This document shows, in pieces, positions 439 through 23,559 of a stretch of DNA of 23,762 nt. The notes below the pieces were generated by a model. That model was not told the origin of the DNA and searched no databases. It worked only from the letters and a program-made list of their open reading frames with translations. Source of the DNA: a virus; the IMG/VR virus record IMGVR_UViG_3300004097_000057, positions 1 through 23,762 of that record; one strand, written 5' to 3'. The first letter of the stretch is position 1; the number at the start of each line of letters is the position of its first letter. The position numbers were made by a program, and so were the translations under genes.

Positions 439-3400
439 CTATTTAAACAGCTCAGTAGGGAATATTGAATTAATACCAATAATATCTAATGGTGTATGAA
501 CTATATCTACACCCGAATCTAATCTAACAGGTAATGTCGCATCGAGAATTGTCTCCATGTGCATTTCTGTTATACTATCCAACTCAAGACCTAACGCAGT
601 ATTTACAGCTCGTTTTGTGAGCATTCTGTATGCAGGTACATGTATTCTAGCCCAGTAAGACGGGAACATTAAAACACCGTAATCACTTAAAATTTTCATT
701 GCCAGGGGCATATTTTCTTTGTAATCTGGAAAAGATTCAACTACAAGAACTTCAGCTTCTTTTGAGTCCATATTCTTACTCTTAGTTAAATATCTATAGT
801 ACGTTTCTTTTGCTATTGTATCAATAGCATCATTATACCAAACACCTGCTTTCACAATTTCCGAGTTAGGTGAAATAATAAAGTTGTTTAAATAAGCAAC
901 ACTATCTTTCTGAGTTTTAATCTTTTTAATCCTCTCAGCTGCCCCATCTAATAGCCTCCCCATTTCCTCAGTCGATTCAGACTTTTTAACAATATTACCA
1001 ACATACTTTAATACCTCAGTACCATCTCCAGTTACATTTGCAATATCACTAATAAACTTGTTTAAAAGATTTGGAGTACCATCTTTTTTATTTAACATGT
1101 ATTCTAAACCAGTATTTATATCTGCTTGTAAACCTTTTAATGAATCAATATTATTATTGTAAATATCAGAACTTAATGAGTTCATAAATCCACGTTTAAC
1201 TACACCATTCAATGGGTGATCTTCTAATCTTTGGATTAAATTATCATACTTAGTTTGCAAATTTGTATCTTTAGGGTATGCGACTTGTTTAACTCTAATT
1301 TTAGCGATTTGAGTTCTTAGTTGCCCTAATGTATTCATCTCCGCCATAATAGCTTTACCTTCAGTAGCTTGTGTGCTTAAAGGGACACCCATAGTAGTTA
1401 AGAATGCGACATTTGATGCAGTATCTTTAGCTAATTTTGTAGGGTTTGCAACAGCCATACCAATCTTAGCACCACTAATTAGTTGTTTAACTACTTTACT
1501 AGCTCTTTGCAGCTTAGGGTTATTGTTAAAGAATGATGTATTATCACCTATTAACCAGTAAGCCATATCTTTTCTAACTAACGATACTTCATTTTTGAAC
1601 CCATCTAGATTCGATAAATTTGTATCAATAGGTTTATACTTAGCTTTAATATCCGCTGGTAAGTCTACATATTTAGCACCTTGACCTAATTTGATAAACC
1701 AATGATGATCAACATCTTTATCTTTTATTAGTGTTTGTAATACTTCTACATTTGAGCTATCATTAGTCTCAATAACTATCCTAATATCATCTTTTAGCAT
1801 TTCCTTACGTAATATACCAGCTTCTTGTGCAGCGATCATGTGTGACGTTGTATGGACTAATGAATGACCTGGTTTTCTAATGATTCCCATTTCAGTCTTT
1901 TCTTCAGATGTTAACACTTTCCTAAAGTCATTATCTCCAACTTGAACAATATTATTAGCCTCTAAATCTAAATTTTTAGCTAAACTAGAACTAATTTTAA
2001 TATCATTAGATGTTGTACCTAAATCAATACCTGCACCTTCTAAATAGAATGAGTCATCAATAGTTCTAACAGCTAATCCTACTTTACCATTTTCTGGTCT
2101 AGTAATAATTCTCCAACCTGTACCCTCTGTATATCCAAATTTATCTATATCGTTTTCAGTAATGATTTGTTTTTGTAAACCTTTACTATAATACTCCCCA
2201 ACTAATGAACCTTTAACATCAGGTCTCATACTAACACCACTACCTATGTCTTTATGGATCATAGCTAATGCTACAGCGTTATCTTTAATAATATCATGTA
2301 ACTCAGTGTTACTTTGGAACATTTCAAACTTGTCTAAACCAAATTTTTCTAAACCTTTTAAGGCAATTAATTCTTTAATTTCATTAGCTTTCTTACTTCC
2401 AGATATTAAGTGGTCTAAATTATACCCGTATTTACTATTAACTACTTTATTATCACTATAAAGACTCACAAAGTGATTCACATAACTTAAATGTTTCTCA
2501 GACATAGATTCATCTAACTCTAAGATTCTAGCTTGTATGTCCGCTGTAGACGTGTTTTCATAACCATATAAAAAGTAATCTGATAAAGGTACTTTATTTA
2601 TTACATTATACAAGTCTTTATGTTGCTCTTTTGTAAAATCAGCTGTTAGATCATCAATCTTAGTCATAATATCATTATCTCTAGTTGTCCTATCTTGATG
2701 TAACTTACTAGACACTGATTGAATCATATTTTTATGTTGTTTCTTATTTAGTTTACTTAAATGTGTAAACTGTAATAATTGCTGTAAAGCAGTAGACCCA
2801 TCATACACACCTTGAATTTTGTTAGAAACATCTACATATAATGGAAATTTTTCTTTTAAAAGTTTATGAGTATTTTTTGTAACAGTTTCAGCTTTAGCTT
2901 CTACTTTACTTAATAACATAGAGTGTACAGCATCATTTAGATTAGTAACTCTATTACTTATAAGAGTTTCAGCTTTAGAGAATGTGCCTTTACTATCATC
3001 AATTCTACTATATAGTACACCTGGTGTTTCACTTGTAGATTTACCTAAATTATCATTTCTTAAAAATGAGTCTGTTAGCGCGTTACGTAACTCTTCTTTA
3101 GTATTCTCATCAAAGTTAGTACTAAATGTATCTTTTAACCATTTACCTAATGCTTCCCAGAAACCTTGTACTTCTCCGTCTTGCTCAACTGTTTGTTTAC
3201 CTATAGCATCAACTAGATTCTCTTCAGAACCCCATTTCTTTATAGCTGCTTGTACTATTGGAGTATCTCTAAACATAGCAATATAATGATGTGCATATTC
3301 ATGTGGTAAAGTATCTTCAGTCATCTTAGAAGGGTCCAAAAGTACTGTTTTAGCATTAATATCTGCTTGACCTTTAATATCACTATCTAAAGCTTTGTAT

Positions 3401-6400
3401 TCTAGATTAATATCTGGGTATACATCTTTAAGAATTTTTTCTATCTTAGTTTTTATAGTAGAATCATTTTCAACTGTTGTAATAATATCTTCACTTTTAA
3501 TATCCCCATCAAATGGAGTAGACTCTGGTTTAGCACCCTTTAGCTTTTTAGCTTGTTCAATACCTAATTCTTTTTGAGTTGTTTCTGTATCCTCGGTTGT
3601 TTCAGCTTTAGGTACTGGTTTTTTATCAGGATCTGGATCTGGTTTCTTGTTAATAACTGGGTCTGGAACTTGACTTACATCTTGACCAAATATAGATTTT
3701 GTGTTATCATTAAATTGTGTATCAATAATATTTTGTTTTTCAGTAATAATTGCATCGATCTGTGTTCTTAATTTAGGAATACCAGGATTAGCAGGGTCCA
3801 TCAATTCAGCAGTTTTTAATGCGTTATCTAAGATATCATAGTCTCTAGCCATTTGTTTAAATCTTTTAATATAATGACCTTGAGCAGCTTCTCCAGTAAC
3901 AGGATCAGCAATAATCTCATCATGTACTGGAATAATACCATTAGATGATTCTATATCTGTCATTGCATCATTAGTTGCTGAATAGATATTAAATGTATCT
4001 TTAGCATGTACAGCATTCGCTTTCAAAGTAGTTAATGTAGGACGTTCTTCTCTAGTAGCAACTTCCCATACAGTACCAGCTTTAGTCTTAACATCTTTTG
4101 CAACATCAAAGATTTTTTCTAGTGGGATTCCATATTTATTTAAATTTTCTTTAGTAAACTCGATTCCATTTAAAACAGCTGAAGGAGGCATCAATTTAAT
4201 ATGTTCACCTTTCTTCTTTTGAATATCAGTTAACACGTTAAATACATCACCTAAAATTGTATTTCTCTCTTTAAACAGTTTGTTAGCAACTTCTTGGTTA
4301 AGCGTTGTATATAAAATTACTGCTGGAGATAAATTACCATCTTTTAAAGCATCAACTGTTTCTGAGTAAATTGTAGGGTCTGACAATATCTGTTTATAAT
4401 TTAAACCGTCTTTACCTAATAATGTAGAAAGATACTTACCAGCTTTTTTACGGCCTGGTCCATTCTTTTGCATAGCAACAAATAACTTATTAGCCATACC
4501 TTCCGCAATAGTATTAGTAGCAGCTTTCTTACCTTGACCATATATCAATGTCATTGTAGGGTCTTTAGATAGCTCTCTAGTATCTACTTTACCATTCTTA
4601 TCATATATACCTGATTCCATTAAAGCATTAATTACTGGTCCAAAGTTCTTCTGAGCTAATGTACCTGTTTTTAGTTGTTCAACTTTAGATAGTCCTGAAC
4701 TGTCTTTAGTAAACTCATTAATAGCTTGTTGTAAGATCCCATATACATCATTTAATGATTTTGTATCACCATCTAAATTTAATACGTCCATACTTTTTAG
4801 TATTTTAGCTACTTTAGGATTTGTACCTAATGCTTCCATTAGTGTAATCATACCACCAGAAGCTTTCGCATCGGACTTAGTTGCATATTCAGTAGTTACT
4901 GAACCTGTTTCTAAACCTGATCTAACATCATTAATAGCCGCTAATGTAGATAATAAAGTTGTAGGTTGACCTTTAAACTGGTTATTCTCACTTATTACAT
5001 CATCTAGAAATTTAACCTTAACCCCTAAATCACTTTCATTTTCAAATAGATCTTTATATACTTCTAAGTACGCATCTAAATCTGTATTCTTACCTGGAGT
5101 AGTAATGTCTTCAACACTAAAACCTGATTCATCTTCAAGTTCTGATACCATATGTTTATACACTCTAATACCTTCTTCTGAAGTAATATCAAATGTAACT
5201 TCACCTGTAGTTAATCCATGTCTAGCAAATTTACTAGTTTGTGCATTTAGTATAGTAGTCATATTATGCAATCTAGCATTTCTTACAAAGTTATAATCAA
5301 AATGTAAATTAATTGGATTTCCATCAGTATCTAGATAATCTGAATATTTTACTAGTAAGTCTTCCATTGGAGCAGATTGAGATAAGTTTTGTCCACCTTG
5401 ACTTTCTTTCTTTTCTAATGACATTTTTAAATCATTTAACCCAAATATATTATTTAAAGCATCTGTACTACCAGCAACTAATTCTAATGACCAATCATTA
5501 AATCCTCTTTCAATACCACTTTCATTATATACTTCAGCTAGCTGTTTAATAAATGAGTGATTACCTTTAGATAACTTACTTCCTGTTTTAGCAATAGTCT
5601 TTCTAGCTTCTTGTAACATAGGTGATACATCACTATAATCATTATCTGACATCTTATCAATATCTGTATCTGAAGGTTTAGATAAGCTTGGCTCTACAAT
5701 AGTAGAAGCAGTAGTTAATTTATTAGTAACACTTAATATACCTGCAATAGTATCTAGTTCTGGTGCTTTCTGTCCATCTTTTTTATATTCATATGCCATT
5801 TCTCTAGCTAATGCGTTATTACTAAAGTATAGTTCATTATATTTACCATATCGGTCATTATCTGTAACGAGACTATCAATATTAATATTTACAACTTGTC
5901 CTACACTAGTTTTTTCTTCATTACTAATATTAACAGTTGGTTGATAGTTATCACCTTCTACAAAGTCATTTATATATGAACCTTTAGAAATAGTAACTGC
6001 ACCAGTTGATTCTAAATCTTTTAGGACAGTTAAACCAACTTTACTATACATAACTTCAATTTGTGAAGGTACTCTTAAATTTTCTTTAGTAGATTTAAAT
6101 CTAAAACCTTGTTGATACATTACCTTTCTACCTATAACAGCAGCTAATCTTCTAATAGGAATATTAGGTGTAATACCATTTGAACTAATTCTAGATGTAC
6201 TAATATTATTATTTTTAGCTTTATCAGATTCACCTTTAATAGCATCAATTACATTCTGTAAACCTACAGATCGTTGTACAGCATTTTCTGGTTCTGATAA
6301 TATATCTAAAAATTTTGAAACACTTTTAATATTTTTACTTTGGATAAAACCAATCTTTTTATAGAATGCTTTACCTACTAAATCTTTGATAGCTGATATA

Positions 6401-6564
6401 GATGTAGAATTACCTTTTAAAAAACCAATCAAATCCTTAGGATTCAATTGAGTTATATCAAATCGTAAAGATTTCTCTTTATCAAAGTTTACACCTACTT
6501 TACTATTGAAGTGTATTGTATGCAACACTTCTAATAGTTCTTCTTTTGTAATACAATTAGCCAT
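439..6564 (-). CDS. N4-type virion RNA polymerase with metallopeptidase motif, 2041 aa
   Basis: The first ~960 residues contain the single-subunit (T7/N4) RNA polymerase signatures in order. A T/DxxGR-like element VRNAR ends at R431 and is followed by an NAQTSK stretch resembling the T7 NPQG region. Motif A has D565 (SDAKASGG), then VYGILQQAINEF, like T7 DIYGIVAKKVNEI. Motif B reads RELSKDPTMTLIYG (R663, K667, Y675), matching T7 R627-K631-Y639. A NAVHAKD element precedes motif C VHDE (H881, D882). In N4 this enzyme is packaged, injected and transcribes early genes from hairpin promoters. A Pro/Asp-rich linker (about 966-990) follows, then a zinc-peptidase motif HEYAH (1088-1092) with a possible third ligand at E1114/E1115, and about 900 residues of ejection-protein-like sequence. 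N4 vRNAP is about 3500 aa, so this one is short. An AAGGAAA Shine-Dalgarno supports the start. Confidence 0.88.
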   Translation of the reverse strand: MANCITKEELLEVLHTIHFNSKVGVNFDKEKSLRFDITQLNPKDLIGFLKGNSTSISAIKDLVGKAFYKKIGFIQSKNIKSVSKFLDILSEPENAVQRSVGLQNVIDAIKGESDKAKNNNISTSRISSNGITPNIPIRRLAAVIGRKVMYQQGFRFKSTKENLRVPSQIEVMYSKVGLTVLKDLESTGAVTISKGSYINDFVEGDNYQPTVNISNEEKTSVGQVVNINIDSLVTDNDRYGKYNELYFSNNALAREMAYEYKKDGQKAPELDTIAGILSVTNKLTTASTIVEPSLSKPSDTDIDKMSDNDYSDVSPMLQEARKTIAKTGSKLSKGNHSFIKQLAEVYNESGIERGFNDWSLELVAGSTDALNNIFGLNDLKMSLEKKESQGGQNLSQSAPMEDLLVKYSDYLDTDGNPINLHFDYNFVRNARLHNMTTILNAQTSKFARHGLTTGEVTFDITSEEGIRVYKHMVSELEDESGFSVEDITTPGKNTDLDAYLEVYKDLFENESDLGVKVKFLDDVISENNQFKGQPTTLLSTLAAINDVRSGLETGSVTTEYATKSDAKASGGMITLMEALGTNPKVAKILKSMDVLNLDGDTKSLNDVYGILQQAINEFTKDSSGLSKVEQLKTGTLAQKNFGPVINALMESGIYDKNGKVDTRELSKDPTMTLIYGQGKKAATNTIAEGMANKLFVAMQKNGPGRKKAGKYLSTLLGKDGLNYKQILSDPTIYSETVDALKDGNLSPAVILYTTLNQEVANKLFKERNTILGDVFNVLTDIQKKKGEHIKLMPPSAVLNGIEFTKENLNKYGIPLEKIFDVAKDVKTKAGTVWEVATREERPTLTTLKANAVHAKDTFNIYSATNDAMTDIESSNGIIPVHDEIIADPVTGEAAQGHYIKRFKQMARDYDILDNALKTAELMDPANPGIPKLRTQIDAIITEKQNIIDTQFNDNTKSIFGQDVSQVPDPVINKKPDPDPDKKPVPKAETTEDTETTQKELGIEQAKKLKGAKPESTPFDGDIKSEDIITTVENDSTIKTKIEKILKDVYPDINLEYKALDSDIKGQADINAKTVLLDPSKMTEDTLPHEYAHHYIAMFRDTPIVQAAIKKWGSEENLVDAIGKQTVEQDGEVQGFWEALGKWLKDTFSTNFDENTKEELRNALTDSFLRNDNLGKSTSETPGVLYSRIDDSKGTFSKAETLISNRVTNLNDAVHSMLLSKVEAKAETVTKNTHKLLKEKFPLYVDVSNKIQGVYDGSTALQQLLQFTHLSKLNKKQHKNMIQSVSSKLHQDRTTRDNDIMTKIDDLTADFTKEQHKDLYNVINKVPLSDYFLYGYENTSTADIQARILELDESMSEKHLSYVNHFVSLYSDNKVVNSKYGYNLDHLISGSKKANEIKELIALKGLEKFGLDKFEMFQSNTELHDIIKDNAVALAMIHKDIGSGVSMRPDVKGSLVGEYYSKGLQKQIITENDIDKFGYTEGTGWRIITRPENGKVGLAVRTIDDSFYLEGAGIDLGTTSNDIKISSSLAKNLDLEANNIVQVGDNDFRKVLTSEEKTEMGIIRKPGHSLVHTTSHMIAAQEAGILRKEMLKDDIRIVIETNDSSNVEVLQTLIKDKDVDHHWFIKLGQGAKYVDLPADIKAKYKPIDTNLSNLDGFKNEVSLVRKDMAYWLIGDNTSFFNNNPKLQRASKVVKQLISGAKIGMAVANPTKLAKDTASNVAFLTTMGVPLSTQATEGKAIMAEMNTLGQLRTQIAKIRVKQVAYPKDTNLQTKYDNLIQRLEDHPLNGVVKRGFMNSLSSDIYNNNIDSLKGLQADINTGLEYMLNKKDGTPNLLNKFISDIANVTGDGTEVLKYVGNIVKKSESTEEMGRLLDGAAERIKKIKTQKDSVAYLNNFIISPNSEIVKAGVWYNDAIDTIAKETYYRYLTKSKNMDSKEAEVLVVESFPDYKENMPLAMKILSDYGVLMFPSYWARIHVPAYRMLTKRAVNTALGLELDSITEMHMETILDATLPVRLDSGVDIVHTPLDIIGINSIFPTELFK

Positions 6565-6573
6565 TTATTTTCC

Positions 6574-9309
6574 TTATTTACAAAGAGTATCTTTTAACGC
6601 TTCAGCAAATAAATCTACTTCAGCGTCAATTTCTGTACTTTTAACTTTTTGAGTATTAAAATTTTGATCTATTTTATCCTCTTGATCTAGTATTGTATCC
6701 TCTTCATGTTTAGTAGATGATTGTTTAGGATCTAATATACCTAATATATCTTGAACTAATGAGTCATCTTTTGTAGCAATTTCATTATCTACTAAATCTG
6801 GGTACTGTTCATAAAATAGTTTATTTAATTTACCTATGTTTTCAATATCACCTTCTTTTTCAATTAGTTTAGATGCAACTCTTGCAGACATAACACGTTT
6901 TTCACCTTTAGTAAGACTCTTATCATTTATTAATGACTCAGTAATATTTTTACTAGTAACACCTTCTTCTTTTGCAATTTGTTTAGCTTTTTCAGCAAGT
7001 TCTTGAACCTTAGGTTTTAATGCTTTGTAATATTGTTTAGTCTTTTTAACAACTGCATCTACACCTTCTTTAATTTTACTTACTACTGTTTGTTCTTTAT
7101 AACCTTTTTTAATTTTACGCTCTAAACTATTATATTGTTTAGTTGTAATATCTTTAGATCTATCTAAAACTTTTAATGCGGTATCTAATTTCTTCTTAAT
7201 TTCTGGGTCAATTACTTGTTGACCTGATATACCTTGTAATTCATTATAAATTACAATAGCTTGGTTCTTAGTAACATTTGCAGAAGATTTTAACTTAGCT
7301 ATAGTAGACTGTTCAGGTAATACTGTAAGTATTTTATCAGATATAATACCTAAAGTTTTTCTGGCATTTATTCTAGTATCTTTAGCAGTAGTTAATAGTT
7401 TTTTAACATATGGAGAATTTGATGCAACACCAATCATAGTATCTAAATCACCATCTGTGATCTCATTTATAACTTTTTTAAGTTTCTTATCAATCTCTTT
7501 ATTAGATAACGCATTATTAGCTCTCCCTTCAATAACATCATCCATAAACCCTCTAGCAGCTGTTGTATCTAAATTTTTAGCTGTGTCCACAGTAGTGTCA
7601 ATTGTCTTACCTGTAAAATCTTTTGTAATTTTATAAGCTTCAGTAGCAGTTTTAACTACACCTTTAATAGCATCTGAACCTACAATCTTTTTTACACCTT
7701 GTTTTGCATTATTATATACTCTATAAGTTGCATCATTAGCTCGTGCAGCTTCCAGGATCGTCTTTGACTTAAGAGTTGCATCATTATTAGCACTCATAGC
7801 TTTACGGGCTATAGCAGTTGCCATTTGATCAGTAACTACTGTACCTTTATCTTTTAGTTTATCTAGACTTGCTTGGATACTATTACTAGCTGTGTGGATT
7901 TTACCACCTACATTATTTTCAGGGTCATTTATAAATTTATCTAAATCTGTTTTAGTAGTAATTTTATCTAGTGCCTCAGTTTGAGAATCTAATTGACTTG
8001 TAAATGTTTGATGTAGTGTATCTTCAGCTTCATATTTATCTTGTATAGATTGTCTATCTTCTTTTGTAAGCGCTTTATATCCAGCTTTAGCTGAAATATC
8101 TGCTATTTTATTAGCAACAGTCTTAGTAGTCTTACTTACACCTCGTGCAGCTAAATTTGTTGTACCGGTTACTGCCAGAGGGGCAGCTCTAATAGAACCT
8201 GAAGTTGCTCCACCTAAAATAGCAGATATGTTAGCTTCTTTTTGATTAGCCTTATTACTAAGTAAATCACCAAAGTTACCTGGATTCTCTGTAAGAATTT
8301 GTGTCCAAGTTTGTAAATATTCTTGACCTGCTTCTGACCCTACAGCTTGTGCTATTCTACTTGCATTAATACTTATATTTTTAGTTAAACCTTTTAAACC
8401 ACCACTTGCTAATGCTTTAGCTGTACCTATAGTTAAGTCTTCAGCAATATCTGTAGGAATAGCTTTTGCCATACCTTTAAAAATATTAAATTCAATACCC
8501 ATTAATGCAATATTTGCAGTACTAGAACCCACAATACGTTGCCAAGAAGCTTCTTTACCAGTAGCTTCCTCATACGCTCGTTTCTGTTGATTCGCCATAC
8601 CAGCACCAATAGTTATAGTAGCTGGATTAACCTTTACTACTTTATCTAATGCTTTTAACATTTTAGGTACTGTTTTACTACCAGCTTTAGCAGCAACCAT
8701 ACCTAATTTACTTAATACATTAGCTTGACCTACTCCCGGTATTAACATAGAACCAATAATAGCAGTACTATCAGCAGCTAAACCTGGAACCGCAGTTAAT
8801 GCATCTCTAGTTAAGTTCCAACCAGCTCCTAATATATTACCTACTCCACCTTGGTCTACTGCTTGACCGAATGCATCATAACTCTCACCTACATTTGTAA
8901 TATTTTGTTGATGTGCTCTATCATCAAATCCTACGTGTTGATTAATCTCTTCATCAGTTCTATAATCTATGTTACGTAACTGTTCAGCTTGTTGATCGAA
9001 ACCTAATTGTTCAGCACCCCATCCAGCAATATCTGTACCTAATTGTGCAGTATCTCTACCTAACTTATAAACTCCTGCTTGTACTTGATCTACGTAATCA
9101 GATTGAGGTTCATTTGTAGGTGTATTACCATATAGGTTGTTAAAAGTATCATCTAATGAACCTAGTAAAGGAGCTGGTTCTGGTGCTATATTATTTAGCT
9201 TAACATTCTTATTCTTAGCAAGTAGATCCATCTTTTGTTGAGCTAGAGATGGAGTACTTGTAGGTACATCAAAATTTAAACCTTGTGTTTGTTGTTCTTC
9301 ATAACGCAT
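6574..9309 (-). CDS. internal virion (ejection) protein, 911 aa
   Basis: This is a large protein ending 9 bases before the vRNAP gene and starting 9 bases after the 551-aa gene, with Shine-Dalgarno AAGGAC. Residues 1-70 look disordered (Gln/Pro/Asn-rich). Residues about 150-380 are rich in Gly/Ala and contain several short hydrophobic stretches (VPGLAADSTAIIGSMLIPGVG near 174-194; ITIGAGMA near 232-239; AILGGATSGS near 363-372). They also contain an EAGQEYLQTWTQ segment, typical of phage ejection proteins that insert into the host envelope. Residues about 400-911 are highly charged, Lys-rich and probably helical. No catalytic motif is apparent. By position it corresponds to N4 gp51/gp52-type injected proteins. 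It could instead be the detached equivalent of the N4 vRNAP N-terminal domain; that is inference from position and size only. Confidence 0.7.
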   Translation of the reverse strand: MRYEEQQTQGLNFDVPTSTPSLAQQKMDLLAKNKNVKLNNIAPEPAPLLGSLDDTFNNLYGNTPTNEPQSDYVDQVQAGVYKLGRDTAQLGTDIAGWGAEQLGFDQQAEQLRNIDYRTDEEINQHVGFDDRAHQQNITNVGESYDAFGQAVDQGGVGNILGAGWNLTRDALTAVPGLAADSTAIIGSMLIPGVGQANVLSKLGMVAAKAGSKTVPKMLKALDKVVKVNPATITIGAGMANQQKRAYEEATGKEASWQRIVGSSTANIALMGIEFNIFKGMAKAIPTDIAEDLTIGTAKALASGGLKGLTKNISINASRIAQAVGSEAGQEYLQTWTQILTENPGNFGDLLSNKANQKEANISAILGGATSGSIRAAPLAVTGTTNLAARGVSKTTKTVANKIADISAKAGYKALTKEDRQSIQDKYEAEDTLHQTFTSQLDSQTEALDKITTKTDLDKFINDPENNVGGKIHTASNSIQASLDKLKDKGTVVTDQMATAIARKAMSANNDATLKSKTILEAARANDATYRVYNNAKQGVKKIVGSDAIKGVVKTATEAYKITKDFTGKTIDTTVDTAKNLDTTAARGFMDDVIEGRANNALSNKEIDKKLKKVINEITDGDLDTMIGVASNSPYVKKLLTTAKDTRINARKTLGIISDKILTVLPEQSTIAKLKSSANVTKNQAIVIYNELQGISGQQVIDPEIKKKLDTALKVLDRSKDITTKQYNSLERKIKKGYKEQTVVSKIKEGVDAVVKKTKQYYKALKPKVQELAEKAKQIAKEEGVTSKNITESLINDKSLTKGEKRVMSARVASKLIEKEGDIENIGKLNKLFYEQYPDLVDNEIATKDDSLVQDILGILDPKQSSTKHEEDTILDQEDKIDQNFNTQKVKSTEIDAEVDLFAEALKDTLCK

Positions 9310-10983: not shown

Positions 10984-11604
10984 TTATACTATTTTATTTT
11001 CTGAGAGTTTTCTACTATTTATATAGTTTTGACTTGCGGTTATTTGGTCTTGAGTCATTGCAGACCCACCTAATGCTAAACCTACATCTTGAGAGTTTTG
11101 TAACCCTGTGTTATAACCCATTGCTTGTGCAATATAATCTGCATTAGTTGTAGCTTTTTCAGCTGCGAACTTCTCTTTAGCTAAACCATAATTCTTATAA
11201 CCTAGATAAGCATTTGCCACACCAGTAAGAGCCTGAACACCATTCATAGCTGTATTCAAACCTGATGATATATTACTACCATCTAGATTCTGACCATTAG
11301 GACTCTCTTGTAAATATTTTGTTGCTTCAGGATTATTAGATAAATCACCTGTGTACATTTGCTTACCATTTTCTACATATCCAAATGTATTGTTATCTTG
11401 CATTCCTGTAGCAAACCCAAATGAAGTACCTAAATTCTTATTTACACCTGCTTCAAATCTATTTGGAGTATTAGTACCTTGTGTTGGTACAGATCCTAAT
11501 CCTTTGTTAAACACACTAGGAGAAACTTTTGCACCAACCGATCTAGTATTTGTGCCCCCACCAATTATTTGTCCTGAATATGGGTCTTTAAATGTATCAG
11601 ACAT
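10984..11604 (-). CDS. small internal virion protein, T7 gp14-like architecture, 206 aa
   Basis: The N-terminal ~110 residues are Gly/Asn/Ser/Thr-rich and probably disordered. Residues about 117-136 are a short hydrophobic helix (NTAMNGVQALTGVANAYLGY). An amphipathic helix follows (KNYGLAKEKFAAEKATTNADYIAQAMGYN), and the C terminus holds a GLALGGSAM segment. A disordered lead followed by a small-residue hydrophobic helix and AEKA..N...Q..GYN is the usual layout of small ejection proteins such as T7 gp14; this is similarity of architecture, not a proven homology. The gene has its own extended -10 promoter candidate just upstream and a Shine-Dalgarno AAAAGGA. It heads the 206-551-911-vRNAP run of ejected proteins. 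Confidence 0.6.
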   Translation of the reverse strand: MSDTFKDPYSGQIIGGGTNTRSVGAKVSPSVFNKGLGSVPTQGTNTPNRFEAGVNKNLGTSFGFATGMQDNNTFGYVENGKQMYTGDLSNNPEATKYLQESPNGQNLDGSNISSGLNTAMNGVQALTGVANAYLGYKNYGLAKEKFAAEKATTNADYIAQAMGYNTGLQNSQDVGLALGGSAMTQDQITASQNYINSRKLSENKIV

Positions 11605-11647: not shown

Positions 11648-14101
11648 TTATACAACACCGCTATGATAATATTTTTCATAGTCAAACTGGTTAGTATAAA
11701 AATCATGTACCGTTAAATCAATTGCTTTAAAGTTAAGTTCAATTGCTTTATACATCATTGCATCTACACCATCTATAAAAGGTGGTATATGTTCTATTGT
11801 AGCTAACTCTGCTACTTGTGCGGTACTAAAATAATCTATCTCAGTACTAATAGCCTCCTCTAATTTACGATTAGCTTCATCTGCAGCTATCTGTGCTCCA
11901 TGTATATCATCATTTAACACTTGCATCTTATCTTGTGTAATACTCGTGAATGTTTGAGTAAATGAAGATACCGCAAATATTATCGTGTTTGCTGTTGTTA
12001 AACCTACAGAACCTACATCAAAGGCTCCAGAATACACCATTATTACCACATATATTGCTGTATATATAGCTTTTAATATAGCATTATCAGTAGACTCTAA
12101 TAGCATTTTAAAAGCATAGGAGGCTGCAAATGTTATTAATAAGGCTTTAACTGCCGCTAAGAAGGCAGCACTTGTTGCACCTCCTGTAAACCAAGTAACT
12201 ACAAATATTACAATAGCAATAACATACATAACAATCTTAACAAATTTTCCAAATTTTTCTGTTTGATAATATTTTAAATGTGTTACTTGTACCGCATATA
12301 TAGATAATCTTAATGATTTAGCAAATAAATCCATTTGTTCTAAAGGCGTAAGTTTATCAATAAAAAACTTAGAGATAGGTATAATTAATGTACCTTCAGC
12401 TAAAGTACCTGAAGTAGTATTATAGTATTTACCATCTGCAATAAATGTAGTACTAGCTAAATATGTAATCTCATACTCAACATATAACGTAGTAGTTATC
12501 TGTCTTCTAACAAGTAATGTATCTATTGTGTTTATCTCAGTCTCAATCTGTATTTGACCATTAGGACCTTCAATCTCAACATCTGTTTCAATATCTTTAG
12601 TACCTACTACATTTTCATACGTGTTTATAGGCCCAATACTTCCAGTATTTGTAGTCCTATTAAACTCTTTCCATAGTAATGAAGCATTATAAGCACCTTC
12701 AATCATTGTTACTGAATAGGATGAGTTATCATCTTTGTATAAAGAAGAATCAACATACACATAATCAAATAACTCATATAAAGCCCTAGCTATAATAGGA
12801 TCTTCTACTCTTGGGTCTACACCAAAATGAATATGGGCTGATGTAACATCTTCTATATCAGGGCTCTCCTCTATACTTTCTAAAAGTAAGTCTGGATCTA
12901 AGCCTATTGTATGTAATATAGATTTTGCATCTAAGTACTCTTCTGATTCTTTGTCTTCTGTGATACTTACTTTACTATTTCTAAGAGATATAACCGGAAG
13001 CATTTCTAAATTAGTAATCACCTCTGTTGCGTTATCTAGCTCTGTGTATGTACCTAAACCAATTTGGTAAGTCCAATACCTAATATCATCAATATTACCT
13101 GTATGGTATACCATAATATAATGCAAGGTTGGCTCTGAAGCAGGTACATATAATGTTACTGGTTCATATGGTTCACCCTCCTCCTCTTCCTCCTCAACAG
13201 AATCAACTATCTCAGTCTCAATAGGGACCTCTGTTACTACTGTCTCATCTAAAATTATTATATTATTAGGATCTACTTCCTCACCAGGCTCTACCCCCTC
13301 TTCAACCTCTTCAACTTCTACTTTATCTACTAATTCTAATGTTACTAGAACATGTGTAGTAACTAATTTTGTAATTGCTGGTATAGGTTCAGGTTCAGGG
13401 TTAGCCTCAGTAGCCTCTGGGATAGTGTCCGGTATACTAGTAATTGTAACTGTAGTAACTGTACGTTGTATTGTTTTTCGACCAATAATAACATCATAGT
13501 TATCAGTAGAGTAGTTATAATCAATACTAGTAATGTGATAAACAAAACTATTATATGATAAAGTATTTGTATAATGAGTATAACCATACTGATTAAATAA
13601 TACACTTGACACTACTTCCTGTTTTGTTGGTACACTTCGTTTAGCTAATACTTTAGTAGGGTTCACACCATATTGAGCACTAATAATCGCCAATATTTTA
13701 GCAGAAGGTATTGTGTTTGCTTGTAAATTTGTCTCTGGTAGTCCGTGTAAATACTCGTTTTCTCCATTATAAAAGTAGTTATTATAAGCACCTCTAATAT
13801 TATTAGAACTTTGTGTAAGTAAGGTAATAATACCAATATCTGTTTTAGCATGAGTAATCGCTAGTTGTGTTAACATACTAGATATATCTTCAGACTCTTC
13901 AAACAGTAATTGGTCATGTACATTTACACTGACTAGGTCTTCTCCTTCAATACCAAATACAAGAAGTGATTCCCCTATAGAATCCGACATAAAATGTTCA
14001 AAATCATCAGATAGTAAGACTAGCCCCCCAGTAAGTGATATTAAAGCCGCACCTGTAAGAACTTTAAGTCCTCCTACAAGAGACTTACCTATACTACCCA
14101 T
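11648..14101 (-). CDS. large membrane-active virion protein, 817 aa
   Basis: I do not recognise a named family. The protein begins MGSIGKSLVG and has a Gly-rich hydrophobic N-terminal stretch (about residues 8-30) resembling a membrane-inserting peptide. The middle is beta-rich and acidic, with two Glu runs (about 261-276 and 302-310) and long Thr/Val/Ile stretches. Four predicted membrane segments lie at about 621-638, 642-662, 677-692 and 698-715, followed by a helical acidic tail. Size, position before the small ejection protein, and this mix of features suggest a structural or tail/channel component that enters the host envelope. Its ATG overlaps the stop of the 163-aa gene by 8 bases (ATGGGTAG), so it is translationally coupled to the acyl cassette. 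Its N4 counterpart, by order only, would be about gp53-gp54. Confidence 0.6.
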   Translation of the reverse strand: MGSIGKSLVGGLKVLTGAALISLTGGLVLLSDDFEHFMSDSIGESLLVFGIEGEDLVSVNVHDQLLFEESEDISSMLTQLAITHAKTDIGIITLLTQSSNNIRGAYNNYFYNGENEYLHGLPETNLQANTIPSAKILAIISAQYGVNPTKVLAKRSVPTKQEVVSSVLFNQYGYTHYTNTLSYNSFVYHITSIDYNYSTDNYDVIIGRKTIQRTVTTVTITSIPDTIPEATEANPEPEPIPAITKLVTTHVLVTLELVDKVEVEEVEEGVEPGEEVDPNNIIILDETVVTEVPIETEIVDSVEEEEEEGEPYEPVTLYVPASEPTLHYIMVYHTGNIDDIRYWTYQIGLGTYTELDNATEVITNLEMLPVISLRNSKVSITEDKESEEYLDAKSILHTIGLDPDLLLESIEESPDIEDVTSAHIHFGVDPRVEDPIIARALYELFDYVYVDSSLYKDDNSSYSVTMIEGAYNASLLWKEFNRTTNTGSIGPINTYENVVGTKDIETDVEIEGPNGQIQIETEINTIDTLLVRRQITTTLYVEYEITYLASTTFIADGKYYNTTSGTLAEGTLIIPISKFFIDKLTPLEQMDLFAKSLRLSIYAVQVTHLKYYQTEKFGKFVKIVMYVIAIVIFVVTWFTGGATSAAFLAAVKALLITFAASYAFKMLLESTDNAILKAIYTAIYVVIMVYSGAFDVGSVGLTTANTIIFAVSSFTQTFTSITQDKMQVLNDDIHGAQIAADEANRKLEEAISTEIDYFSTAQVAELATIEHIPPFIDGVDAMMYKAIELNFKAIDLTVHDFYTNQFDYEKYYHSGVV

Positions 14102-14585
14102 CAGTTAATCCTAAATATTTAAACATTTTTTTACCTTTCTCATAGATATCTTCTCTTAGTATAGTTAATGGTGAACCATGAGTATGATAGGCCCTAATAC
14201 TTGAACCTGTAGCCATTGATAAAAAGTATTTTAAACCACCTGGGTGTGGTGTAACTTTTATCTTATGTGCATCATATATTTCAAATATAGTTCTTAAACC
14301 GATTAACATACCTGTTACATCTTTTTCAAGATGTATACTTACACCTATATACATATTGTCTTTCACTAACATATACACAAAACCAATTCGTTTATCTTCT
14401 TTAAATATTGCAAAAGCTAAACCTTGCTCTAATGAAGTCACCATATTCTTTTTGTATAGAGGTAGATAAGTATCTATTAACTTGTCCTCAACTTCAGCTA
14501 TATCTAAGTCTATTTGGTTTAGGTCTTCAATTTTGTGTACAGTGTATTGAGCTCCTTGTTTATTTGTGTAAGACACATGAAGCAT
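14094..14585 (-). CDS. possible GNAT-fold acyltransferase, 163 aa
   Basis: The start is well fixed by a perfect AGGAGG seven bases before the ATG. The sequence has a GNAT-like order: an N-terminal helix pair, then strands AFAIFKEDKRIGFVYMLV and NMYIGVSIH, a helix (TGMLIGLRTIFEIYDA), strand KIKVTP, and a Gly/His-rich segment (HPGGLKYFLSMATGSS, then YHTHGS). I see no clean acetyl-CoA P-loop (QxxGxG/A), so the assignment is tentative. T7-like phages carry a GNAT-like gp13 at the same place, just before the internal virion proteins, which supports a virion-assembly role. Its direct coupling to an ACP and a ketoacyl synthase raises the alternative that it takes acyl groups from ACP. It overlaps the synthase gene by 26 bases and the 817-aa gene by 8. 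Confidence 0.5.
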   Translation of the reverse strand: MLHVSYTNKQGAQYTVHKIEDLNQIDLDIAEVEDKLIDTYLPLYKKNMVTSLEQGLAFAIFKEDKRIGFVYMLVKDNMYIGVSIHLEKDVTGMLIGLRTIFEIYDAHKIKVTPHPGGLKYFLSMATGSSIRAYHTHGSPLTILREDIYEKGKKMFKYLGLTDG

Positions 14586-15420
14586 AAAATCCTCCTAGCC
14601 CACTAGCAACACATAATACCTTACCTTGTAGTTTTATATCATCTGCAACCATACATAACTCTAATAAACCACTTGATCCTTGACTATGACCAATTTTAGC
14701 TTTATAACCTATTACATTAGGTCCAAAGGCTTCGTACTCAGCTTTGTCATTTACTTCAGTTCCTGTTGCATGACCTTTAACCATATCTGAAGCAGTATAC
14801 ACCTTTTTATATCCCTCTGCTGTTACTAGAAATGGATTATTACTATATGTATAGGATTTCTTACAATGACTTACTTCAAACCCTTCTCCTTCTTTAGAGA
14901 ATACAGCACAAGCAAAACCATCACTGGCTCTTACAGATATTCTATGTTCATGAAATATTCGTACAGTATCAAAACTAGTTTTTTCTTCTGTTATTACTAT
15001 TACATGATCCATCCCAGAATCTAACATTTCTTTAGCTTTTATTATTCCATACATACTACTTGCACATGTATTACTAACTATCTCCATATCATTGATCTGT
15101 ACATCATTTTGTGCAAACAAACTAGTGTACTTATGTGCCATATGGGCTACTAAACCTTTTATAGCCATAGGACTAGGTAAATCATTATCAAGAGAGTTAC
15201 TATAGTCTTTTTTACATACTCTATGTTCTGATTGGTGGAAAGAGGCTCCATTAGAGTACACTAACCCTACTTTACCTTTCAGCTTAATACTATCTAATTC
15301 TTCTTTGAACATTTCCATGTATTGGGGAGTCATATATGCACTTCTATCTAGTTCAGGAATCGCAATTCTATCTTTGCAATCTTGTGTTGCGTGTTTGTAG
15401 AAATATTTAGTTAGAGTCAT
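14560..15420 (-). CDS. compact beta-ketoacyl-ACP synthase, 286 aa
   Basis: The thiolase-fold condensing enzyme signatures are all present. Numbering is from the ATG at 15420, which has a GAAAGAG Shine-Dalgarno; a TTG five codons upstream is less likely. Nucleophile C119 is in VSNTCASSMYG. The first His, H217, is in HATGTEVND. K240 and H245 are in the YKAKIGHSQGSSG block, with the same K-to-H spacing as FabF. A C-terminal GLGGFYAS corresponds to GFGGTN. The Cys-His-His triad marks the KAS I/II class, which condenses acyl groups with malonyl-ACP. The protein is much shorter than FabF (about 410 aa), with shortened spacing before C119 and between C119 and H217. The FabF gatekeeper Phe position is Leu (L275). 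It overlaps the ACP gene by 14 bases and the 163-aa gene by 26. Confidence 0.85.
   Translation of the reverse strand: MTLTKYFYKHATQDCKDRIAIPELDRSAYMTPQYMEMFKEELDSIKLKGKVGLVYSNGASFHQSEHRVCKKDYSNSLDNDLPSPMAIKGLVAHMAHKYTSLFAQNDVQINDMEIVSNTCASSMYGIIKAKEMLDSGMDHVIVITEEKTSFDTVRIFHEHRISVRASDGFACAVFSKEGEGFEVSHCKKSYTYSNNPFLVTAEGYKKVYTASDMVKGHATGTEVNDKAEYEAFGPNVIGYKAKIGHSQGSSGLLELCMVADDIKLQGKVLCVASGLGGFYASCVLHK
14591..14596 (-). promoter_or_regulatory. AGGAGG ribosome binding site inside the ketoacyl synthase gene
   Basis: The minus strand reads AGGAGG six to seven bases before the ATG of the 163-aa gene. It is the best Shine-Dalgarno in the cassette. It lies in the codons for the conserved Gly-Gly near the C terminus of the upstream synthase, so the protein motif and the ribosome site share the same bases. 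Confidence 0.7.
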
Positions 15421-15655
15421 TGGTAACTCTTTCAACGATTGTTTTAATTGTTAAGTCTTCTATGCTATTCTTTTCAAGCCATTCAGAGCTAAATCTAGAG
15501 TACTTTTCATCTAAGGCTAGCAAAACCATACTAATACCAAAACTATCAACACCACAGTCAATTAACTTGCTATCAATAGTAATCCTATTACCATGTTCTT
15601 CCCTTACTGTTTTATTTATAAAATCCACTATTTCATGTTCTATAAGTTTCATCAT
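15407..15655 (-). CDS. acyl carrier protein, 82 aa
   Basis: This is a small acidic four-helix protein of normal ACP length. The 4'-phosphopantetheine site is at S38 in LIDCGVDSFGISMVLLALDE, which matches the ACP pattern LxDLGxDSLxxVELxxxLEE with Phe in place of Leu after Ser. A host phosphopantetheinyl transferase would be needed to load it, since none is encoded here. Two adjacent ATG codons are possible; AAAGGG lies about 3 bases before the first and 6 before the second (15652), so the second may be used. A promoter candidate stands immediately upstream. It is the first gene of the ACP - ketoacyl synthase - GNAT cassette and overlaps the synthase start, which suggests the two act as partners. 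Confidence 0.9.
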   Translation of the reverse strand: MMKLIEHEIVDFINKTVREEHGNRITIDSKLIDCGVDSFGISMVLLALDEKYSRFSSEWLEKNSIEDLTIKTIVERVTNDSN

Positions 15656-15717: not shown

Positions 15718-16410
15718 TTAAGAAATACCTAATGGGTTTGATTTAACTGTTAAACCTAAACCTGCCATTGCACCTTTCATAACACTATCAATAGAATCTA
15801 CTTTAATAGTATCAGGTACTGAGTTTGCATCTTTTGCGACAGAATAAGCAACAGACCAACTATCTAAAGTTTGTTTTAATAATTTTTGTATCGCATCATC
15901 ATCAAAACCTTTAGTTTGTCTTGCTACTAGTAAAGCTTTTTTATCTTCAGTGATTGCTTGTTTTTCAACTAACTCTCCTTGATTCTCTTTTAATACACCT
16001 TCATTAGTAAGAACAATACCTTCTAAGCCTTTATTAACTCTATCTATTACACCATTTAATTTTAACTCAGAATCTTGTGTTTGTAAAAGATCAGTTTCTT
16101 CAGCAATTCTCTCACCTTCTAAACCTGTAATAGTTATATCAGCAGCTAATTTTTCTGCTTGTAATGTTGCAATATCTTTACCTAATAAAAACCTAACTGC
16201 TTCTGTTAATGTATTTTGGAATGCACCTAAATATACAGTTGCATAATCTTTTTGTGTAATACGTTCAGCATTGTACTGAGCATTAATATGTTGATTTGCT
16301 GTTGCCATTAAGATATCAAACACACCGTCTCCTGTAACAACAAAATTTTCATCTGTTGTTACATTACTTGTTAAATCACTAATTTCTAAGTCTGTGATAG
16401 TTATTGACAT
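15718..16410 (-). CDS. minor virion structural protein, 230 aa
   Basis: The N-terminal ~75 residues contain a conserved-looking helical block (GDGVFDILMATANQHINAQY, then ERITQKDYATVYLGAFQNTL). Residues about 78-165 form a long heptad-like coiled coil (AEKLAADIT, ERIAEETDLLQTQDSELK, LVEKQAITEDKKALLVARQ). The C-terminal part has a block TKGFDDDAIQKLLKQTLDSW seen in structural proteins that follow the capsid gene in N4-like and related marine podophages. I recall that pattern rather than having searched for it. Its exact role (head completion, neck or tail) is not known to me. Shine-Dalgarno AAAGGTA; only 11 bases separate it from the 171-aa gene. Confidence 0.55.
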   Translation of the reverse strand: MSITITDLEISDLTSNVTTDENFVVTGDGVFDILMATANQHINAQYNAERITQKDYATVYLGAFQNTLTEAVRFLLGKDIATLQAEKLAADITITGLEGERIAEETDLLQTQDSELKLNGVIDRVNKGLEGIVLTNEGVLKENQGELVEKQAITEDKKALLVARQTKGFDDDAIQKLLKQTLDSWSVAYSVAKDANSVPDTIKVDSIDSVMKGAMAGLGLTVKSNPLGIS

Positions 16411-16999: not shown

Positions 17000-18232
17000 C
17001 TAGTATTTTGTAGCGTGTACAATTCTAGCCATTTTTTCAGGCTCTAGTGCAATACTTCCTGCGAAGAAATTGAACGAGTAGATACCTTGTAATCCGTGTG
17101 GATCTTCATATGAAGCAACACCTGGTTTTTTACTTAAGAAATTAATCTTTTTGTTACCTTGTAATCCAACAGTTGCAAAAGCACCTTTAGTTACATAGAT
17201 AATTGGAAGACCATCGTAATAAGTTCCTGCACCTGATTGACCTCTAGCAGTAGCTTGAGCAGCAGTTAAAGTAGTTGATTTATATCCTTCTAAAGGAGAT
17301 GCACCAACAACAGCACCACAACCGTCATATCTCATCATTCTTTGTGCTTGAATGAATCTAGTTGAGTGAACAGCACCAACTTCATTTTTAGCTAAGTTAC
17401 CTGCAGCTGCATACATTCTAGCTGGTACAAATGCTTTTTGTTCAAAATCATCTTTTAGACCATTTAATGTTCTAACTGAATCTCTACCACAATAAGCAAA
17501 GTAAGCAGCGTTTACTGGTACAGTACCTGCATTTCTTGAACCATCAATAATAGATGTATTCATTTTAGCATAGTTAGCTTCTAAGCTATCTTCAACATTT
17601 AGAATAGTTTCATACTCTAATGCAGTTTCATTACCTGAAACAGTTGTACCGTCAACACCTGATACTGTTAATAGAGAAGTAGCAATACCACCATATACTT
17701 CAATACCACAAGAACCTAAAAGCTCTTTTTGTAAATAATCATCATATAACTCAGCAGCTAGTTCACCCATTTTTTCATAATATTGAGATTCCATTTTAGC
17801 ATCTGAAAATTTATCAACTTCATCAGTGTATTCTAAGAATGCACCCATTCTAGTTAATGTACCTTCTTTAGTAATTCTAGTAACACCAACTCTATTTACT
17901 CTACCAGCACCTTCTGAAAGAAGTGGTAAACCATTTGTAACATCAACAACAGATCTAGATCCACCATATAAGTTACCATTTGCATTTGGATCTTGTTTTA
18001 CACCAGTTGAATCCAGACCTTGATCTGTAACGTTGGCATCATCTAAGATATATAAAGTCTTGTGAACTTTAAGCGTTTTACCATGATTTAATGGTAGTGT
18101 TCTTGAATCAACTAATTGTTCAAAAATAATATCTTTTTTTGCTGTTCTAATACCTTTTTCAATAAGGGCCTCAACCCTTACGTTTGCTCCATTAGTTGCT
18201 GTACTTTTACCATTTCCATATACTTGTGACAT
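17000..18232 (-). CDS. major capsid protein, N4 gp56 family, 410 aa
   Basis: The length and sequence match the N4-gp56 major capsid family (HK97 fold). An N-terminal arm is followed by a helix (VRVEALIEKGIRTAKKDIIFEQL). Family-type segments follow: NRVGVTRITKEGTLTRMGAFLEYTDE (residues about 112-137), helix ESQYYEKMGELAAELYDDYLQKEL, GTVPVNAAYFAYCGRDSVRTLNGL, and VGAVHSTRFIQAQRM. It ends FNFFAGSIALEPEKMARIVHATKY. It forms the head shell with the scaffold encoded just upstream. Codons and Shine-Dalgarno (AAAAAGG) fit a highly expressed gene. A promoter candidate upstream of the 121-aa gene and the terminator after the stop frame a capsid transcription unit. Confidence 0.9.
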   Translation of the reverse strand: MSQVYGNGKSTATNGANVRVEALIEKGIRTAKKDIIFEQLVDSRTLPLNHGKTLKVHKTLYILDDANVTDQGLDSTGVKQDPNANGNLYGGSRSVVDVTNGLPLLSEGAGRVNRVGVTRITKEGTLTRMGAFLEYTDEVDKFSDAKMESQYYEKMGELAAELYDDYLQKELLGSCGIEVYGGIATSLLTVSGVDGTTVSGNETALEYETILNVEDSLEANYAKMNTSIIDGSRNAGTVPVNAAYFAYCGRDSVRTLNGLKDDFEQKAFVPARMYAAAGNLAKNEVGAVHSTRFIQAQRMMRYDGCGAVVGASPLEGYKSTTLTAAQATARGQSGAGTYYDGLPIIYVTKGAFATVGLQGNKKINFLSKKPGVASYEDPHGLQGIYSFNFFAGSIALEPEKMARIVHATKY

Positions 18233-22927: not shown

Positions 22928-23188
22928 CTATTTCAAGGTATCTTTTTCTAATTCTAATTTTACATCGTTTCCCTCAACAAGCTTATAAGTACCAACTATA
23001 AATTTATCTGTAGTGTCTAAATGAAGCTTTTTAATTTGCTCTTCACTTACAAATGTAACTACACCTTCTTTAACTACTTTATATATAACTTTAACATCAT
23101 CTTTTGTGTACGTGTGTCCAGACACTACACCTGTACACCCACTAAACATTACTGCTAAACTTATTACAACTAATACTAATTTTTTCAT
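22928..23188 (-). CDS. small lipoprotein, 86 aa
   Basis: The N terminus is a lipoprotein signal: KK, hydrophobic core (LVLVVISLAVMF), lipobox FSGC with Cys18. The mature part of about 69 residues is soluble and charged (YTKDDVKVIYKVVKEGVVTF, then KLVEGNDVKLELEKD). Such proteins next to lysis genes may serve as outer-membrane spanin subunits, or in superinfection exclusion. It is not proline-rich like classical Rz1, so the spanin assignment is only a possibility. A perfect AAAGGAG lies 8 bases before the ATG, suggesting strong translation. It follows the phospholipase-like gene by 2 bases. The lipobox supports a Gram-negative or at least lipoprotein-processing host. Confidence 0.7.
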   Translation of the reverse strand: MKKLVLVVISLAVMFSGCTGVVSGHTYTKDDVKVIYKVVKEGVVTFVSEEQIKKLHLDTTDKFIVGTYKLVEGNDVKLELEKDTLK

Positions 23189-23190
23189 TT

Positions 23191-23559
23191 TTATATCTCC
23201 TTTAATTTAAAATCGAATGCACTCTCACCATGATCTTTTACAAAACTATAGTAAGTCATACATCTATTCCTAGCCCATTTAGTAGGGTAGTACCATCTAT
23301 TTACTGATTCAACTGCAAGAATTAAGTTATCAAAAAACTCCTCATCTGCTAGCTCTTTATCATCTTCAGTTCCACCAAACTCATACCTATCATCATGACG
23401 ACAACAAATAGGTGTTATATTAAGAAAAAAGATAGTATCAGGCACTAGGTTTTTATTCCACCCACTACCACAACCATTACAATTTTTCTTTGGCATATAG
23501 CCAACTCTCTGAGAGAGATTGGTCATAGTATCTTTTGGTATTTGTAACAATTTAAACAT
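23191..23559 (-). CDS. phospholipase A2-like protein, 122 aa
   Basis: The core motif CCRHDDRYEFGG (residues 52-63) is the PLA2 active-site helix pattern CCxxHD, with catalytic His55 and Asp56. It is preceded by a Cys/Gly-rich segment (NCNGCGSGWNKNLVPDTIFF, residues 26-45) in the place of the Ca2+ loop. A second helix (DDKELADEEFFDNLILAVE, about 66-84) offers the partner acid residue. Six cysteines (27, 30, 52, 53, 100 and the spacing around them) could form disulfides. Short phage proteins of this pattern are known. No signal peptide is present, so export would need a holin or the protein acts from the cytosol. It overlaps the 69-aa gene by 8 bases and precedes the lipoprotein, i.e. it lies in the envelope-attack group. 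Confidence 0.65.
   Translation of the reverse strand: MFKLLQIPKDTMTNLSQRVGYMPKKNCNGCGSGWNKNLVPDTIFFLNITPICCRHDDRYEFGGTEDDKELADEEFFDNLILAVESVNRWYYPTKWARNRCMTYYSFVKDHGESAFDFKLKEI

Follow-up and report, generated by a model that had tools for sequence, protein, structure and literature searches.

The IMG/VR virus record IMGVR_UViG_3300004097_000057 (positions 1 to 23,762; "the window" below means this whole 23.8-kb stretch) is a fragment of an N4-like podovirus genome. It carries a three-gene cassette for an acyl carrier protein (ACP), a beta-ketoacyl-ACP synthase (KAS) and a GNAT-fold protein, placed directly before the gene of an N4 gp53-type tail plug. Comparative evidence suggests that in many aquatic short-tailed phages such a cassette acylates the N-terminus of the tail-tip or DNA-ejection protein encoded downstream. 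We consider it fairly probable that the cassette is a dedicated lipidation unit for acyl-ACP-dependent acylation of the tail-tip protein of the next gene, most likely at its N-terminus. The target is probably the N-terminus of the directly downstream product, i.e. the gp53-type plug in N4-like phages or the product of the first ejection-region gene in P22-like phages, and the acyl group would probably help the phage enter the host membrane. The identities of the three enzymes, their intact catalytic residues, the conserved gene order, an ACP-GNAT core and a link between cassette and plug N-terminus were established from sequence, structure model or comparison, and are described below.

The virion genes lie on the minus strand in the order portal, gp57-like, capsid, gp55-like, gp54-like (tail tube), ACP, KAS, GNAT, followed by gp53-like, the gp52 and gp51 positions, a 911-aa protein and the virion RNA polymerase (vRNAP). 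The first-pass annotation of this DNA placed the cassette between capsid and ejection genes; this holds, and can be narrowed, as the cassette is flanked by the genes for the tail tube and the tail plug. As that annotation had also stated, the three genes overlap each other and the next virion gene. ACP (15407..15655, minus strand, 82 aa) overlaps KAS (14560..15435, minus strand, 291 aa from a TTG start) by 29 nt, or by 14 nt if KAS starts at the ATG at 15420. KAS overlaps the GNAT gene (14094..14585, minus strand, 163 aa) by 26 nt, and the GNAT stop overlaps the plug start by 8 nt. Identical gene copies were found on two further contigs, one of which is 66 kb. No open reading frame (ORF) of the cassette is a chance frame, since homologues of every one recur elsewhere in this order; the conserved synteny in other phages also rules out that three unrelated ORFs came together by chance. 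The promoter candidate that had been proposed in front of the ACP gene did not stand: the region holds 10 sigma-70-like sites against 13.4 ± 4.0 in shuffled sequences, which is not above chance.

As a single sequence the window ACP stays below the Pfam PP-binding cut-off (15.5 vs 20.8 bits, E=0.021). A profile built with its relatives matches ACP structures at 9e-7. Among solved structures the best sequence match of the window ACP is NodF (4e-4), and the Alteromonas phage ACP matches at 1e-5. The intact phosphopantetheine site noted earlier, Ser38 in GVDSFG, is well founded: the phosphopantetheine Ser of 15 phage ACPs aligned with that of E. coli AcpP, a DS[LF]-type phosphopantetheine motif is present, and Asp-Ser is invariant in all aligned phage ACPs.

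The window KAS is a compact FabF-like enzyme. Its C-terminal half is recognised by Pfam Ketoacyl-synt_C above the cut-off (24.6 vs 20.8 bits), and its N-terminal half shows weak KAS III similarity. The KAS profile matches the actinorhodin KS at 1.4e-14, and also FabF. Cys124, His222, Lys245 and His250 align with C164, H304, K336 and H341 of E. coli FabF, so that the Cys-His-His triad seen in the first pass is real and is joined by the FabF-type Lys. None of the four residues varies among 12 N4-type and 70 distinct P22-type phage KAS; no decay of the triad was seen in these relatives. FabF-type enzymes have about 400 aa, against 291 aa in the window KAS. Most P22-type KAS are also longer, about 366-378 aa, and the window enzyme matches them by hhalign with 99.1% probability (1.7e-18). 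In a KAS tree both phage groups fall on one side of the branch from six bacterial enzymes (100/98), a placement to be read with caution because the branches are long.

The third protein of the window gave no significant match to Pfam or any other family. Structure prediction bore out its earlier description as GNAT-like. The window model, computed from four sequences, is of moderate quality (pLDDT 75, pTM 0.69) and matches GNATs with Foldseek probabilities of 0.95-1.00, including the N-terminal acetyltransferases NatD, Ard1 and Naa50. The P22-type third protein, modelled from 46 sequences, reached pLDDT 93 with GNAT probability 1.00, and its fold neighbours include an "internal virion protein A" from a phage. 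The window GNAT is homologous to five N4-like relatives (hidden Markov model, HMM, 2.7e-10). Between the window GNAT and the P22-type GNAT no sequence similarity was detected, and the likeness of the two therefore rests on fold and position. The two phage GNAT families represent either separate recruitment or divergence beyond recognition. In alignments of both families inspected by eye, no acyl-CoA P-loop motif (Q/R)xxGx(G/A) is conserved between beta4 and alpha3. Asp26 and His114 are conserved in six aligned N4-type GNATs and might correspond to the catalytic His/Asp dyad of the HlyC type; the P22-type GNATs have no invariant His. Neither the window nor its relatives gave an HlyC-family Pfam match, and there was no Pfam match to eukaryotic-type N-myristoyltransferase.

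The cassette is widespread in phages. Viral scans with the window KAS alone, or with the first GNAT and ACP alignments, returned almost only copies of the window, and broader profiles were needed. A KAS profile that combined the window sequence with that of one P22-like phage from a metagenome found 109 viral contigs, of which 78 were parsed. Outside the N4-like group, ACP-KAS thus stands directly before an ejection-region gene in at least 78 viral contigs, most of them P22-like, and 64 of the 78 have a GNAT-type third gene. The usual order in the parsed contigs is a head-closure gene (gp10-like, judged by order), a small gene, ACP, KAS, the third gene and the next gene. Scans with the plug protein found ACP-KAS-GNAT or ACP-GNAT before the plug in N4-like phages, and the cultured Alteromonas phages PT11-V19 and R22Y have ACP and GNAT, without KAS, in this place. 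Between the GNAT stop and the following start, almost every P22-type locus has a spacing of -1 to +3 nt, and most N4-type loci have one of about -4 nt. KAS was lost in two lineages that retained ACP and GNAT; for this reason we regard ACP-GNAT as the core and KAS as accessory. The neighbourhood search thus found homologues linked rather than singly scattered. KAS matches in Listeria, Enterococcus and Staphylococcus "phage" records, which are unverified, unannotated contigs, were treated as bacterial contamination.

Some single loci may be mentioned here. When a genome collection was scanned with the P22-type GNAT, a single match came back, L104, on a contig assigned to a Balneolaceae metagenome-assembled genome; this may reflect a true host, through a prophage or an infection, or else faulty binning. 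Four contigs (L075, L086, L087, L089) have KAS without a GNAT-type gene, with ACP present in at least L075, L087 and L089. In all four, the protein encoded after KAS is about 105 aa long and has KHKV(N/S)A close to its start. In L005 (MW202545, 12840-14759) the protein after the P22-like cassette has more cysteine pairs and glycine than is usual in proteins of the ejection region.

The gene directly after the window cassette (11648..14101, minus strand) encodes an 817-aa protein starting with MGSIGKSLVGGLKVLTGAAL, the proposed acyl acceptor. It matches phrog_2220 at 5.9e-54 and the solved N4 gp53-like chain 9ze4_M at 4.2e-9 alone and 1.6e-81 with a profile, and its gene lies between those of gp54 and gp52, as in N4. 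According to a 2025 preprint, N4 gp53 is the tail plug at the distal tail, where a hydrophobic knot corks the mouth of the tail tube (PMC12633501). An N-terminal extension of about residues 1-46 (13964..14101, minus strand), which we propose to be the acylated and membrane-active segment, occurs together with the cassette. Among N4-like phages, a hydrophobic or amphipathic plug extension of this kind is present in 15/15 plugs with the cassette and in 0/73 without it. A first count had given 8/13 vs 1/70 with a motif that was too strict, and the present figures come from a relaxed motif set after inspection of the misses. On the plug tree the cassette defines one deep N4-like clade (99% support) of 15 plugs, two of them from the cultured Alteromonas phages. 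Nested in this clade, L122 has lost the cassette, with 31 bases left between gp54 and plug, and its plug N-terminus is now cationic, MSWLSSKLSKAEKWLKKKY.

The downstream proteins of the N4-like and P22-like groups are unrelated, yet they have a common N-terminal segment of about 40 residues with the pattern M[G/S/A/P]-hydrophobic. When an HMM was made from residues 1-45 of the N4-type plugs that go with the cassette, it picked up the P22-type downstream proteins at their N-termini (best 1.1e-8, the alignment beginning at residue 1), whereas the plug bodies gave no match to the P22-type downstream proteins (best E 0.16). The start M[GSAP][AGVF][VIL][VILA] occurs in 41/48 P22-type and 8/11 N4-type downstream proteins, compared with 1/452 background ORFs. 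The window plug start, MGSIGKSLVGG, is a divergent example, with a small residue 2 and hydrophobic character but without the VV..ED pattern. Methionine aminopeptidase cuts after Met when residue 2 is Gly, Ser, Ala or Pro. Residue 2 of the downstream proteins is always one of these four and not strictly Gly, although Gly is found there in 19/48, against about 1% of the background. No Lys is conserved in the common segment, and the first 40 residues are Lys-free in 30/50 P22-type and 4/14 N4-type proteins. The sole amine common to all downstream N-termini is the N-terminal one.

Several observations weigh against the proposed N-terminal acylation. Cassette-free N4-like plugs also start with Met-Gly (MGLFS.KK; MGLFSSKTK in N4, MGLFSSKKK in DEV), and Gly2 was rejected as proof of N-acylation for this reason. 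A Met-Pro start, an awkward acceptor for N-acylation, is found in 7/50 distinct P22-type downstream proteins. On the tree, the 15/15 vs 0/73 split comes down in essence to a single gain and a single loss, so that few independent events stand behind it. L102, a fragment too short to be kept in the relaxed count and the tree, has the extension, and its upstream sequence is without the cassette. The similarity of the N-termini may be helped by their Val/Ala/Asp-rich composition. The two GNAT families lack detectable sequence similarity to each other, the window model is of only moderate confidence, and GNAT folds have many substrates. Finally, in the available part of the preprint on N4 no lipid or membrane role is given for the gp53 N-terminus (PMC12633501). 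As a separate observation, cassette-free plugs such as those of L107, L108, L128 and L131 start with MG[LM]FS.KK or similar, which resembles the eukaryotic N-myristoylation signal.

The acyl transfer itself, the atom that accepts the group, the kind of chain and a role at the membrane are inferred, and we propose the following scheme. The host phosphopantetheinyl transferase (PPTase) would activate the phage ACP at Ser38, and host fatty acid enzymes would load an acyl group on it; the phage KAS would set or extend the chain. Both the PPTase and the reductases for the cassette would be supplied by the host. The GNAT-fold enzyme would then take the acyl group off ACP and pass it to the protein of the next, overlapping gene. 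The likeliest acceptor would be the alpha-amino group exposed on Gly, Ser, Ala or Pro once Met is removed; a hydrophobic or amphipathic helix follows this N-terminus. In the virion, the greasy N-terminus would be located at the tip of the tail or within the set of ejected proteins. When the phage adsorbs, this N-terminus would insert into the outer membrane and help to open or anchor the DNA channel. The first-pass annotation had offered a virion protein or a host lipid as the acceptor; by sequence comparison a virion protein appears best supported, and the host-lipid option is weakened. The wider proposal, that at least two podovirus groups use their own ACP, KAS and GNAT pathway to fatty-acylate the protein that leads the entry of DNA at its N-terminus, and so have a lipid-tipped tail on a non-enveloped bacterial virus, is tentative, and we give it slightly less than an even chance.

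The downstream virion protein might instead carry its lipid at an internal position, on a lysine as with HlyC or CdiC; the N-terminal helix would then serve the enzyme only as a recognition tag. Known GNAT-fold acyl-ACP-dependent protein acyltransferases act on lysines, and CdiC, encoded directly upstream of its substrate gene, adds 3-hydroxydecanoate (PMC8510554). Met-Pro starts would pose no problem to such an enzyme, and the conservation of Asp26 and His114 in the N4-type GNATs could fit it. Set against these points, the common segment holds no conserved lysine and many N-termini lack Lys in the first 40 residues; the HlyC-family Pfam match is missing and the P22-type GNATs are without an invariant His. 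We regard internal lysine acylation as unlikely. In a different explanation, to which we attach only a small probability, the GNAT is an N-terminal acetyltransferase or an assembly chaperone of the plug, perhaps like T7 gp13 or P22 gp14, and ACP and KAS are separate or structural. The fold neighbours NatD, Ard1, Naa50 and "internal virion protein A" agree with this, as does the position of T7 gene 13 and P22 gene 14, likewise just before a membrane ejection protein. Acetyl transfer, however, requires neither ACP nor KAS, and the ACP Ser and the KAS catalytic residues are intact across deep divergence, which favours acyl chemistry.

The three genes could also be auxiliary metabolic genes. ACP and KAS would then raise or reroute the fatty acid production of the host, and the target of the GNAT would belong to the host as well. 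The ACP of R22Y was published in this sense, as an auxiliary gene that serves the fatty acid metabolism of the host (PMC11705849), and acpP-fabF-fabG in Rhodobacteraceae prophages was read likewise (PMC8224337). The few ACP-KAS pairs without a GNAT gene in another context (L075, L086, L087, L089) would also suit it. Yet the cassette lies inside the virion operon, overlaps the plug gene and tracks the plug N-terminus. In ten cassette-bearing records, some of them fragments, no PPTase or FabG was found, and ACP and GNAT persist in the two lineages without KAS. An auxiliary metabolic role thus seems improbable. Acyl-ACP-dependent acylation of the next-gene product, most likely at the N-terminus, is the explanation we favour.

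The other genes of the window agree with an N4-like virion region. The upstream boundary of the cassette is formed by a gp54-like virion protein (15718..16410, minus strand, 230 aa; tail tube in N4), which matches phrog_2050 at 4.7e-35 and has the N4 gp54 position. The N4 gp56-type major capsid protein (17000..18232, minus strand, 410 aa) matches phrog_1357 at 4.6e-67, with 474 phage records. A 206-aa protein at the gp52 position (10984..11604, minus strand), an outer-membrane ejection protein in N4, matches phrog_2646 at 5.6e-8 with gene order as in N4. The vRNAP (439-6564, 2041 aa) fits the profile of the N4 polymerase from about position 1251 onwards and not before. The N-terminal part that is lacking may be encoded by the 911-aa gene before it (6574-9309), which would make this a split vRNAP; the vRNAP of R22Y was reported as 2083 aa (PMC11705849). 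A 122-aa ORF at 23191-23559 contains ICCRHDDRYEFGG, which by eye resembles a phospholipase A2 active-site stretch, and it gave no match in Pfam or PHROG. It adjoins a putative lipoprotein (MKKLVLVVISLAVMFSGC) at 22928-23188.

It has long been asked how short-tailed phages make their first breach in the outer membrane, and an acylation cassette would give a chemical answer. Within the searched literature, tail plugs and ejection proteins have apparently not been considered lipoproteins so far. If the proposal is true, it would explain "auxiliary" phage ACP genes now ascribed to host metabolism, and suggest a function for the small genes before the T7 and P22 ejection proteins; T7 gp13 and P22 gp14 may then be stripped-down functional counterparts. 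It would also represent a new N-terminal fatty-acylation of cytosolically made proteins, unlike those of N-myristoyltransferase (NMT), HlyC or the lipoprotein pathway. The searched literature, with bioRxiv and most subscription journals outside it, holds nothing on acylation of phage ejection proteins and no description of the cassette as a unit. The earlier statement that no phage system of this make-up has been described therefore stands for the whole cassette within that literature, and has to be qualified for its parts: the ACP alone is known from R22Y, and fabG-acpP-fabF was reported in Rhodobacteraceae prophages (PMC8224337).

The closest relatives of the system are in the Alteromonas phages R22Y and PT11-V19, which have direct ACP homologues in the same place and a GNAT before the plug, and differ by having no KAS. 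T7 gp13 (PF11090) and P22 gp14 (DUF2824) are likewise encoded by a small gene directly upstream of an outer-membrane ejection protein, but without an adjoining ACP or KAS, and neither has sequence similarity to the cassette GNATs. By eye, T7 gene 13 (L105 308-724) and P22 gene 14 (L106 8911-9366) look GNAT-like. Like the phage enzymes, the toxin-activating lysyl acyltransferases HlyC, ApxC and CyaC, and CdiC of class IV contact-dependent growth inhibition, have a GNAT-like fold, here with acyl-ACP as donor (PMC8510554). Their genes lie directly upstream of the gene for the modified protein, whose lipid promotes membrane attachment, and the lipid of CdiC-modified protein was proposed to enter lipid A (PMC8510554). 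The same gene logic is seen in the phage cassette. The toxin systems differ in using the host ACP, in having no KAS, and in modifying internal lysines of secreted toxins, and they have no detectable sequence relation to the phage GNATs. Eukaryotic NMT acylates viral entry proteins, the myristoylated viral capsid proteins, on Gly2 after Met removal. It is a host enzyme of two fused GNAT domains that uses acyl-CoA, whereas the phages have one small GNAT and a dedicated ACP, and their candidate acceptors also include Ser, Ala and Pro. By the membership tests made, HlyC/CdiC and NMT are analogues of the phage GNAT and not its families. In rhizobia, NodF and NodE, a dedicated ACP and KAS, feed the specific N-acyltransferase NodA, whose acceptor is a chitin oligomer. 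The phage cassette is like NodF-NodE-NodA in its dedicated ACP and KAS and differs in its proposed acceptor, a protein. Its enzymes are of known kinds, and the novelty lies in the proposed system.

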